IMG/VR virus record: IMGVR_UViG_3300037963_005450
Location: 83,396 to 115,963 of that record
Strand: one strand, 5' to 3'
Source of the DNA: a virus
Length of the DNA stretch: 32,568 nucleotides
Shown here: one piece after another, positions 941 to 9,414 of the stretch
How positions within the stretch are numbered: position 1 is the first letter of the stretch
Layout: the number at the start of each line of letters is the position of its first letter
The notes under the pieces: model-generated
What the model was told of the DNA's origin: nothing
What the model saw: only the letters and a program-made list of their open reading frames with translations
Database searches by the model: none
Program-made: the position numbers and the translations under genes

Positions 941-1817
941 TAATAATTCTAGGCAGTTAAATAAAAGAGCCTATAGCCAAGTAAGATATAAGTCGTTATG
1001 ACATTTAGTATAGCATTATTTGTGCCTAGAAATTGTTATTTAAGATATTGGTCAGCCTTCGTGGCCATAAGGATAAACCAGCAATGGGATAAAAGAGAGT
1101 TGAATATGGAATAGACTCTCTGATGCAGCAATGCATTTCACTGAAAGGTATCGTAACATCTATGTTATGGTGTATCAAATCCTCTTGAGGTGATACAGTA
1201 GCATAGACAATCAGACAGGCTGGTTGTTGAGATGGAAACATCAATAAGCGTTATGATAGGTAATGGTAGTATGATCTTACCGGATCAAAAGCTGTTATTA
1301 GAATTTTATCTAGTTGCTAGTAGAAATACTGTGACAATGGATTTAAAACAATAAGTAATGGGGAGGCCCATGAAAGTAAGTAGGAGTTATAACCTAAACT
1401 GGTCAAAAGCTGGCATGGTTATATAAACTTTACGTGTCTTCTACTACTAACCTGAATCCTTTTAACAGAACGCCAATGAAGTTCAATAACTAAAAGCAAA
1501 ATTAACGTAGAGGCTATTGTATGTGGGAGATACCCCAACAATACACTTATCCTGTTGTAATATACAGGTGCAGATAAAGCTCGCAAGGCCTAATGTAAAT
1601 GAATCAAGTAAAATTTATCTAAGAGAGGTGGTTCTCTCCTAATCCTGCCAAGGAAGTTAGTTTGAAAGTGAAGTTATGTCTACAATAGCAGTGATGGCGG
1701 ACATCTTAATCCGTGTGTATTCTAAGTACATGCAGTAATGCATCGTGTGAATTGAGTCAGAAATGGCAAGTATAAACTTAGAATAAAGGGCCACATTCTC
1801 AACCCTTTGTTTATTTT
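941..1817 (+). ncRNA. Giant ornate non-coding RNA candidate (GOLLD/ROOL-like or new class)
   Basis: About 870 nt with no credible gene but very dense inverted repeats. Helices read by eye: 947-955/1023-1031 (9 perfect pairs), 1050-1054/1062-1066, 1094-1100/1115-1121 (7), 1123-1127/1132-1136 (GCAA loop), 1154-1159/1162-1167, 1171-1177/1191-1197 plus 1181-1183/1188-1190 (CUUG loop), 1207-1212/1222-1227, 1231-1234/1239-1242 (GAAA loop), 1259-1263/1277-1281, long-range 1318-1325/1439-1446 (8), 1358-1362/1367-1371, 1388-1394/1417-1423 (7), 1515-1520/1538-1543 plus 1524-1527/1534-1537, 1551-1555/1564-1568, 1623-1628/1633-1638, 1697-1701/1710-1714, and 1718-1727/1776-1785 (10 perfect), which encloses 1730-1734/1739-1743 (GTAA loop). 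GC is about 38-42% in sampled lines against about 28% in neighbouring genes. It ends in a terminator. Giant phage RNAs of this size (GOLLD, ROOL) are known and reported to form multimeric cages; membership here is untested. A group II intron is unlikely because no domain V is seen. Confidence 0.7.
1785..1817 (+). terminator. Terminator closing the giant RNA
   Basis: AAAGGG (1785-1790) pairs with CCCTTT (1803-1808) around a 12-nt loop, followed by GTTTATTTT. The A at 1785 is shared with the last pair of the preceding ten-pair helix. The next ATG is at 1831. Confidence 0.65.
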
Positions 1818-2572: not shown

Positions 2573-3325
2573 ATGAAAAAATTAAAATATTACTTCAATA
2601 AACTTTTTAAATCAGAACAAACTTTAGAACAAACTACTGATACTACAGGATTACAAGCTGCTGCTGAATTCTTAGATAGTATTTGCATCTATAAATTTGA
2701 TCGTGATAAATTATTTAGAGGTCATCAAGGTAGAATTAGTTTACTTAACTTTAAAGGTCAACAAGTTTTAGATTTTTCTAATACATATTTTAGTGGTCAT
2801 ACTAGCCATAAATACATGGTCAATGATAATAAAACACATTTGATTACTACTAAAAATGTAAAAATGCCTAAGAAAATCTTATATAAAGTTGAAGCATTGA
2901 CTAACTATATGCATAAAGATGTTATAGATCAAGGTAATGTTCCAGGTATAAGGTTTAAATATAAAACTTTTACAGATCATAATGGTATTCATGATTCAAT
3001 AAGCTTTGAAACTAGACATATGTATGGGGAAGATTTAGAAATCTCTATTGTACGTAAGCAAGTAAAGTCAGGATTACATATGAAAGGTCATTATGATAAT
3101 ATCCAAGAATTAAATGCATTAAATCTTAGATACAAAATATTCAAACAGAATATTGAATCGTTATCTATTGAAGATTTAAGTAGCAAACTGTTAGAAAATA
3201 GAATTAATCTGGGTAAACTAGAAGATTCTATACGGATGTATTTAAATGCACCAGATCAACATACAATCTATCATAATCAATTTAAAAATTTAAATCTTGA
3301 ATTAGATGATAGGTTTTTTGAATGA
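2573..3325 (+). CDS. Hypothetical protein, 250 aa
   Basis: A soluble protein with a lysine-rich N-terminus (MKKLKYYFNKLFKSEQ), a beta-rich middle, and a helical C-terminal part from about residue 185. No motif or family is recognised. The start has the TTTAAAACCAAAACA leader and stands 26 nt after a terminator, so it is probably monocistronic. Its stop codon TGA (3323-3325) is embedded in a perfect palindrome (3322-3337). Confidence 0.7.
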   Translation: MKKLKYYFNKLFKSEQTLEQTTDTTGLQAAAEFLDSICIYKFDRDKLFRGHQGRISLLNFKGQQVLDFSNTYFSGHTSHKYMVNDNKTHLITTKNVKMPKKILYKVEALTNYMHKDVIDQGNVPGIRFKYKTFTDHNGIHDSISFETRHMYGEDLEISIVRKQVKSGLHMKGHYDNIQELNALNLRYKIFKQNIESLSIEDLSSKLLENRINLGKLEDSIRMYLNAPDQHTIYHNQFKNLNLELDDRFFE

Positions 3326-4652: not shown

Positions 4653-5249
4653 ATGCAAAAAGCTAAAGTTCAGATCGTGCCTGAAGATAAGACAGGTGCA
4701 GTAATCAGAGTGTCTAAAAACAATCCAGAATTTGGTCATGTTAGATTGACACAACAAAAAGTTACATTTACAGCAACAGGCTGGGTAAAGAAAACAAATC
4801 TTAGCACATTACTTCACGGTAAAGTAGAAGATTTAGAAGCTCTAGGTATTCAAGATTCAAGTGAATTACCTGGTAATATAGTTGTACAAGAAAGTACACA
4901 ACCATTTAGTGAATCAGATCCAGATAGAGATCTTAAAATAGCTGGTGAAACAGGTATTATTTGTGCTACTGCTGATGGAGAACCAATATATAGAAAGACT
5001 ATATATGATGGAACTGGATCAATGGAAGATACATTGATTGCACATGCAAATGGACAAGCAATTAGAGAAGCAAATTCTAATGGTGCAGATTCTATAGCTG
5101 CTGATGAATTTGAAGCATCTGTAGAAGAGAAACCATCTAAGAAGAAAAAGAAAGAGGAACCAGTAGCTGAAGATACTAATGACATGGAGGAAGAAAGCTC
5201 TGATGATTTAGTATTGGAAGATGAATCTACTGAGGAATTTGACCTATAA
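4653..5249 (+). CDS. Hypothetical phage protein with acidic SSB-like C-terminal tail, 198 aa
   Basis: Residues 1-130 form a compact domain containing RLTQQKVTFTATGWVKKTN, GKVEDLEALG, LPGNIVVQES and DRDLKIAGETGIICATADG. I recall similar unnamed proteins from marine phages, but no function. From about residue 150 a lysine block (KPSKKKKKEE) is followed by a disordered acidic tail ending STEEFDL, resembling the acidic tips of phage single-strand binding proteins. A role in DNA metabolism is a guess. It is followed by three consecutive hairpins. Confidence 0.65.
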   Translation: MQKAKVQIVPEDKTGAVIRVSKNNPEFGHVRLTQQKVTFTATGWVKKTNLSTLLHGKVEDLEALGIQDSSELPGNIVVQESTQPFSESDPDRDLKIAGETGIICATADGEPIYRKTIYDGTGSMEDTLIAHANGQAIREANSNGADSIAADEFEASVEEKPSKKKKKEEPVAEDTNDMEEESSDDLVLEDESTEEFDL

Positions 5250-7891: not shown

Positions 7892-8721
7892 TAAAGAAAC
7901 AGAAAACTAAAACTTTAGTTACAAAACCCAATAACAATAGTTCTGATTGTATTGCTCCAAACATTATATATGGATGTTTTGGTGGATGCATCAAAACTTA
8001 TTGTTATATGGCTAGATTTAACGGTGAAAGAGTTTTTGTAAATGAAAATGTAGATGAGATATTTGGATCTGTAGTTGATTGGGAAAAAACTTATAAAAAA
8101 GTTCCTAATCAACAAGATCCGGTATATACTATGGTAGATATTGCCTGCAATTCAGATTTAGTATTAATGCAAAAACATATGCCAGAACCGTTGATTGATT
8201 ATCTTAAAAGATATGATGATCATCCTCAACTTAATAGTACTATGGCTACTAAGTATCCTGGATTATTAAAATTAGATGTAAATCATTTTAATAAACGGCC
8301 AAGAGTACGTGTTAGTTTAATGCCTCAAAAGTATTCTGATATATTAGAACCAAAGATGCAAAAAATAATGAGCCGTATAGCTGATATTAACCGGCTTAAA
8401 CAATTGGGATGGGAAGTTCATATTAATTATAGTCCTTTAATATTTTATAAATTTTGGAAGGAAGAGTATAATAATTTATTCTCTATGGTAAGTGATATGG
8501 CAGGTGAAAATAAATGTGAAATAATTGCATTAACTAATCATCAAAGGCAAATGCAACGTGCATCACCAAAAGCTAGAGAAATAATGAGATTATCTAGTGA
8601 AATTAAAAATGGTGGTGGTGTAATGAGGTATCCATTAAAATACAAAACTATATTGTTAGATCAGTTTAAACAGATTTATAGTCAATATTTTAACTTAAAT
8701 ACAATTAGATATATTTTTTAA
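7888..8721 (+). CDS. Spore-photoproduct-lyase-like radical SAM protein with atypical Cys motif, 277 aa
   Basis: The N-terminal segment IIYGCFGGCIKTYCYMARFN carries C30, C34 and C39-Tyr, positioned like the 4Fe-4S cluster motif of radical SAM photoproduct lyases, but spaced Cx3Cx4C instead of Cx3Cx2C. Further similarity to the SPL family lies in VRVSLMPQKYSDILEPKM and LKQLGWEVHINYSPLIFY. If active it would cleave SAM to repair pyrimidine lesions or modify a nucleic acid. The family identity is an inference from layout. It overlaps the helicase by ATGA and is followed by a DNA 3'-phosphatase-like gene, suggesting a repair cassette. Confidence 0.65.
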   Translation: MIKKQKTKTLVTKPNNNSSDCIAPNIIYGCFGGCIKTYCYMARFNGERVFVNENVDEIFGSVVDWEKTYKKVPNQQDPVYTMVDIACNSDLVLMQKHMPEPLIDYLKRYDDHPQLNSTMATKYPGLLKLDVNHFNKRPRVRVSLMPQKYSDILEPKMQKIMSRIADINRLKQLGWEVHINYSPLIFYKFWKEEYNNLFSMVSDMAGENKCEIIALTNHQRQMQRASPKAREIMRLSSEIKNGGGVMRYPLKYKTILLDQFKQIYSQYFNLNTIRYIF

Positions 8722-8731
8722 AAATAATTAT

Positions 8732-9184
8732 ATGGCAAAAGAAGAAGCAATTATTGTTGATGTAGATGGTACATTGGCAGACATGAGAGGTATAAGAACT
8801 CCTTTTGAATGGGATAAAGTTCATCTTGATAAACCTCATCAAGATGTTATTGATCTTGTTAATGATTTAGCAAATATTGATTTTGAAAAAGAAGATCCTT
8901 TTTTTGGTAAAAAATACAAGATTATTATTACAACAGGTAGAGATGGTGTTTGTGAGAAAGAAACTAGAAAATGGTTGCAAGATCATAATGTACCTTATGA
9001 TTTATTATATATTAGAGATAAAGGTGACTTTAGAAAAGATAGTATAATTAAGTCTGAGATCTATATGGATCATATTAGGCCTAAGTATAATGTTAAATAT
9101 GTAATAGATGACCGTGATCAAGTAGTTGATATGTGGAGATCTTTAGGACTTAGAGTTTTACAAGTAGCACCAGGAAATTTCTAA
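8732..9184 (+). CDS. HAD-family polynucleotide 3'-phosphatase-like protein, 150 aa
   Basis: HAD motif I is VDVDGTLAD (nucleophile and acid Asp), motif II TTGR, motif III Lys in FRKDSIIK, and motif IV VIDDRDQVVDMW. The ending LGLRVLQVAPGNF and the overall order match the phosphatase half of T4 Pnkp. The kinase half is absent. It likely removes 3' phosphates from DNA or RNA ends, or acts as a nucleotidase. It sits ten bases after the radical SAM gene and its stop overlaps the next ATG (TAATG). Confidence 0.85.
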   Translation: MAKEEAIIVDVDGTLADMRGIRTPFEWDKVHLDKPHQDVIDLVNDLANIDFEKEDPFFGKKYKIIITTGRDGVCEKETRKWLQDHNVPYDLLYIRDKGDFRKDSIIKSEIYMDHIRPKYNVKYVIDDRDQVVDMWRSLGLRVLQVAPGNF

Positions 9185-9414
9185 TGGGTAGAATGAAAGA
9201 AGTCTTCATGGAAATGCGTGAAGCTGAGTTTGACGGAACATTAGAAGAATTCATCAATTTACAAAAAGAAGAGGCTTTAACTGAGCCTGTAGATATTCTT
9301 TGTCCAAATTGTCTAACTGATAAATTAGTAGAAACAGAGAATAATGAAATGAATTGTGCCACATGTGGGTATGATTTTATTAAAATTGATAGGAATACAG
9401 TAAGATTCAAGTAG
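9184..9414 (+). CDS. Zinc-ribbon protein, 76 aa
   Basis: An N-terminal helix (MGRMKEVFMEMREAEFDGTL) precedes a four-cysteine zinc ribbon, CPNCLTDKL then CATCGYDF, about 18 residues apart. It is a typical small phage nucleic-acid or protein-binding module. It is translationally coupled to the phosphatase through TAATG and may assist it. No further function can be read. Confidence 0.7.
   Translation: MGRMKEVFMEMREAEFDGTLEEFINLQKEEALTEPVDILCPNCLTDKLVETENNEMNCATCGYDFIKIDRNTVRFK

Follow-up and report, generated by a model that had tools for sequence, protein, structure and literature searches.

What occupies the block between positions 941 and 1817 of this phage DNA? In the window, by which we mean the whole 32,568-nt stretch analysed (it lies in a record of 115,963 bases), the original prediction had placed a giant structured non-coding RNA there, of the GOLLD or ROOL kind or possibly of a new class, and we confirm that the block holds no plus-strand gene. 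Judged by comparison with its homologues, the plus strand of 1036–1812 is a conserved, covarying non-coding RNA of ~780 nt (777 nt), and it almost certainly belongs to the GOLLD lineage. The best overall explanation, which we consider probable, is a divergent ~780-nt GOLLD RNA, encoded by a crAss-like phage and forming a homo-oligomeric cage.

At least 14 homologues of this RNA were found in IMG/VR phage contigs. A blastn search with the RNA against 50,697 phage records gave no match, and the relatives used as queries of this type gave short weak matches or none. The 250-aa protein at 2573–3325 led to the close relatives L004 and L005, and a motif from the RNA to L012 and L014 (~70% identical); two- and three-motif patterns added L034, L016, L031 and L046, then to L118, L110, L141, L152, L161 and L108. 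One three-motif pattern returned two chance matches in IMG/VR (L002, L003), and none of the 19 matches from one contig pattern scan was convincingly similar by nhmmer.

All nine full-length clade members have their ends at ~1036 and ~1812 in window coordinates. Of the extent first proposed, ~1036–1812 is conserved in all homologues, while 941–1035 lies outside the conserved RNA, aligning in the two closest relatives only; it could be a small structure of its own. In it, 947–955 and 1022–1030 are complementary as a perfect 9-bp stem. The RNA block is 94–96% identical in L004 and L005. In L005, identity is 95.8% over an 890-base alignment covering the RNA versus 76.7% at the DNA level downstream, and this fall to 77% shows that the RNA is more constrained, and evolves more slowly, than its neighbours. 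Its GC content (0.35–0.38) had been described as higher than that of the surroundings, which is true of the downstream genes (0.25–0.33) but not of the upstream part of the window (0.33–0.40). Scans for Bacteroidetes-type TAnnTTTG and sigma-70 promoters yielded no matches above chance, and the terminator scan left the 3′ hairpin uncalled, its loop exceeding the scanner's permitted length.

Is the structure under selection? Where at least fifteen helices had been claimed, an RNAalifold consensus of nine full-length homologues supports 26, with compensatory (double) changes in 81 of their 144 pairs. By an independent count, 95.5% of cells in this consensus pair, versus 35–44% when the partner strand is slid, and the covariation score is 0.587 versus 0.076–0.113; the sequences represent a handful of lineages and the cells are non-independent, with the slid controls having equal relatedness. 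A core alignment of 15 sequences, which was fitted to the model's structure and whose counts are therefore biased toward it, has double changes in 29 of 39 pairs and a covariation score of 0.711 (0.08–0.16 after sliding).

Two long-range pairings had been singled out from the window sequence. That of 1718–1727 with 1776–1785 is upheld, with a complementary core in 13 of the 14 sequences checked and with covariation. The pairing of 1318–1325 with 1439–1446 is complementary in the window and contradicted by the homologues; we reject it because 1313–1322 pairs with 1327–1335, and 1438–1445 with 1379–1386, each with covariation. The GNRA loops noted earlier are borne out by GAAA at 1235–1238 and 1323–1326 and CGCAA at 1582–1586, in covarying or invariant hairpins. 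The CUUG-capped hairpin CCUCUUGAGG (1182–1191) exists as described, but is not conserved in every relative.

To which family does this RNA belong? A scan of 700–1900 against Rfam with permissive filters assigned 1379–1806 (+) to GOLLD (RF02032) at 42.8 bits, with E values of 1.1e-9 (1.2 kb searched with all families) and 5.7e-10. Scanned in full under standard Rfam settings, the window gave nothing above gathering scores, and a genome search with RF02032 also missed the RNA. The match is accompanied by the architecture of GOLLD as known from RF02032 and from the cryo-EM structure of env-38 (PMC12286853): besides the homologous 3′ domain, the RNA has all three conserved motifs (UCAAAAG loop, CGCAA hairpin and 3′ hairpin with UCUCA), a long-range helix, a pseudoknot, a variable linker and a separate, less conserved 5′ domain of GOLLD length (this domain is conserved in the clade and in L110, L152 and L161), it approaches the ~800 nt of GOLLD in all (777 nt), and it is phage-borne. 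In the 15-sequence set the long-range helix is 94.8% paired, and eight of its nine pairs have changes on both sides. Inside it lie a three-way junction, the GCUCGCAAGGC hairpin and one further hairpin, and it encloses, as in GOLLD, elements of the P18, P19/20 and P21 types. The pseudoknot joins, as in GOLLD, a strand after the long-range helix with a strand after the next hairpin, and is fully paired in 14 of the 15 sequences by several different pair sets. The linker varies widely in length between homologues and takes the position of GOLLD's disordered linker (PMC12286853).

Coordinates of the RNA and its elements in the window
Feature	Position	Strand	Remarks
Whole GOLLD-type RNA, conserved block	1036–1812	+	nhmmer and MAFFT homologues align there and no further
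5′ domain, outside the Rfam model	1036–1378	+	covarying helices 2–11 in the A2 alignment
5′-domain junction	1149–1258	+	1149–1157/1250–1258 around 1160–1168/1198–1206, 1207–1214/1220–1227 and 1231–1234/1239–1242
GAAA-loop hairpin	1231–1242	+	covarying stem, helix 8
GAAA-loop hairpin, helix 11	1313–1335	+	every cell paired (100%); 5 pairs with changes on both sides
3′ domain	1379–1806	+	matches RF02032 GOLLD positions 1–416 of 416
First 3′-domain stem	1379–1445	+	1379–1386/1438–1445 and 1389–1394/1417–1422; Rfam alignment, helices 12–14
UCAAAAG loop	1403–1409	+	between 1399–1402 and 1410–1413
Variable linker	1446–1512	+	ends near the conserved AAAAGCAAAA motif
GOLLD [[[ ]]] long-range helix	1513–1689	+	1513–1521/1681–1689
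Pseudoknot helix	1541–1720	+	1541–1546/1715–1720; helix 15
GCUCGCAAGGC hairpin, CGCAA loop	1579–1589	+	matching place in the Rfam alignment; invariant in A2
Three-way junction and two hairpins	1611–1663	+	helices 19–21 (9-sequence set); helices 5–7 (15-sequence core)
Long-range helix 1718–1727/1776–1785	1718–1785	+	aligned by Rfam with a helix of GOLLD
3′-terminal hairpin 1785–1790/1803–1808	1785–1812	+	UCUCA in the loop (1797–1801), then a U-rich stretch; helix 26

The 5′ domain is, by profile comparison, present in other phages too, the A2 profile matching L110, L152 and L161 from model position ~20 onward. In its junction, the outer helix is paired in 98.8% of cells with 8 pairs changed on both sides; the three inner helices, in their order in the table, are paired in 100%, 97.1% and 100% of cells with 6, 4 and 3 such pairs. 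The GAAA loop of the hairpin at helix 8 is present in eight of nine A2 rows (AAAA in L034), and this hairpin is a possible counterpart of loop L11a of the solved GOLLD structure (PMC12286853).

Does the RNA assemble into a cage? Published work on GOLLD describes a rise in its expression during lysis, the assembly of env-38 into a 14-mer cage whose disordered linker points inward, and the binding of GOLLD by ribosomes in pull-downs (PMC12286853); one Lactobacillus prophage GOLLD is dispensable for phage production (PMC7567579). By analogy, the window RNA would be strongly transcribed in infection, and many copies would come together by kissing-loop and A-minor interactions to build a hollow RNA cage, whose interior the variable linker would face. 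Homology makes it most likely that the RNA oligomerises, and we think it reasonably likely that it forms a cage. Speculatively, such a cage might sequester or concentrate translation components during host takeover; that phage tRNAs, ribosomes or the like are its cargo appears doubtful.

The alternative that survives best is an RNA of GOLLD lineage that has lost its cage and works in monomeric form or in small oligomers, for instance as a ribosome-binding or regulatory RNA. In known GOLLD cages, the L21a kissing loop (bridge B8) is self-complementary (PMC12286853). The presumed L21a loop of the window RNA reads GUGGUU, unlike GOLLD without a GC or CG palindrome (L012 and L031 have GC), suggesting that the half-shell may differ in one contact or more, and a loss would also be consistent with the distance of the clade from the RNAs behind the GOLLD model, as reflected in the 42.8 bits. 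However, the mapping of L21a comes from the Rfam layout and is uncertain, and strong selection maintains the architecture as a whole, from the 5′ domain and the linker to the pseudoknot and the conserved loops, as expected if quaternary contacts matter. On balance, we consider a cage-less GOLLD unlikely.

Could the RNA instead represent a new giant phage class that is GOLLD-like by resemblance only? Its 5′ domain is not in Rfam, and both the RNA and its relatives (55–103 bits) stay below the RF02032 gathering score of 150 bits. This cut-off, however, is an annotation threshold and not a structural property, and the published GOLLD collection was assembled with cmsearch at a 1e-5 cut-off (PMC12286853), which is why we file the RNA as a divergent GOLLD. 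Full-length RF02032 matches form graded intermediates (L118, 103 bits; L031, 100.4; L046, 99.4; L152, 96.3; L110, 85.4; L108, 79.1; L141, 74.9; L161, 55.2), and a classic GOLLD member, L126, reaches 281.5. Detection is also reciprocal: model R1, built from the window RNA and its eight closest homologues only, finds L118, L141, L161, L110, L152 and L108 at E 5e-11 to 5e-7. The R1 search did not find L126, so that it is RF02032, together with the intermediates, that links the clade to classic GOLLD. Together with the full-length match at E ~1e-9, this leaves a new class highly improbable and the corresponding option of the original prediction unsupported. ROOL, HEARO and OLE, also proposed for comparison, were without a match in Rfam up to E = 5; ROOL is likewise a large, phage-associated and cage-forming RNA, but is reported to differ from GOLLD in both sequence and secondary structure (PMC12286853). 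Alike by description is an abundant ~800-nt non-coding transcript of phage ICP1 (PMC7567579), which shares the size, phage origin, orf-less spacer and tRNA-less phage genome.

A protein-coding or decayed coding region with incidental local folds has a negligible probability, since, despite a 72-aa minus-strand ORF and folding z-scores no better than those of genes, no protein frame is conserved across the homologues, their longest stop-free runs vary in position and strand, indels break the frame, and compensatory changes conserve pairing. Folding energy did not set the RNA apart (MFE z −2.1 to −3.0, versus −2.6 and −3.9 in two coding controls) and, with coding controls folding equally well, is uninformative on its own here.

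Which phage carries this divergent GOLLD RNA? Terminase, portal and capsid sequences point to a crAss-like phage. The terminase matches mostly crAss-like records, with a Crassvirales genome on top, and the portal matches include the crAss-like phages met with the terminase. The nearest relatives of the capsid include Leptolyngbya phage Lbo-JY46, csAssE-Sib and the Cellulophaga phages phi17:2 and phi4:1, which renders the exact placement uncertain. A terminase homologue is present on 12 of the 15 RNA-bearing contigs, and in all 12 the RNA lies on the opposite strand, at ~6–10 kb in most contigs (in one only if circular) and at 21–24 kb in three whose terminase contains in-frame TAGs. In the literature consulted, we found no paper that links GOLLD to crAss-like phages; as evidence that no such link has been described, this is weak.

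The distribution of the RNA is patchy, as 17 named crAss-like or related genomes gave no convincing match to it. With R1, the phages tested by name (crAss001, phi14:2, the cr-series, phi17:2, phi4:1, csAssE-Sib, Fpv20, ProJPt-Bp1 and Lbo-JY46) gave borderline matches of 63–64 bases at best (E ~0.08), which were treated as chance; RF02032 gave no match in them. What sets the RNA apart from GOLLD, besides its loop, is a score of 42.8 bits versus a cut-off of 150, a crAss-like host, and a record in which no tRNA was called, whereas GOLLD is often near tRNAs. Among the relatives, L031 has a tRNA-Met (631–703) ~1.1 kb downstream of its GOLLD RNA on the same strand, and L005 a tRNA-like cloverleaf (4982–5055, z −3.7) directly 3′ of the RNA, at which ARAGORN called no tRNA.

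The terminase frames with in-frame TAGs are those of the GOLLD-bearing contigs G010, G013 and G014. On L152, ARAGORN called a tRNA with anticodon CTA (7932–8006), and together the two observations suggest TAG recoding. It is a bolder, and in our view improbable, reading that GOLLD has been inherited for long in a crAss-like branch, TAG-recoded members included, always opposite the terminase strand, and that the altered contact loop of the clade results in a cage whose size or symmetry differs from the 14-mer.

For the search of further family members, it matters that the Rfam cut-off hides full-length divergent GOLLD RNAs. The present data assign a GOLLD RNA to crAss-like phages, where its position is conserved, and they provide a 5′ domain that covaries and is missing from the Rfam model. 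Knock-out and cargo experiments on GOLLD would become feasible in a crAss-like phage that carries this RNA and can be cultured. Upstream of the RNA, a hairpin occurs in opposite orientations in L012 (~2700–2770) and L014 (~9146–9210), and ~1 kb upstream of the GOLLD RNA of L110 there is a sub-threshold match to a hammerhead ribozyme (2074–2132; 43.4 bits, cut-off 48.5).
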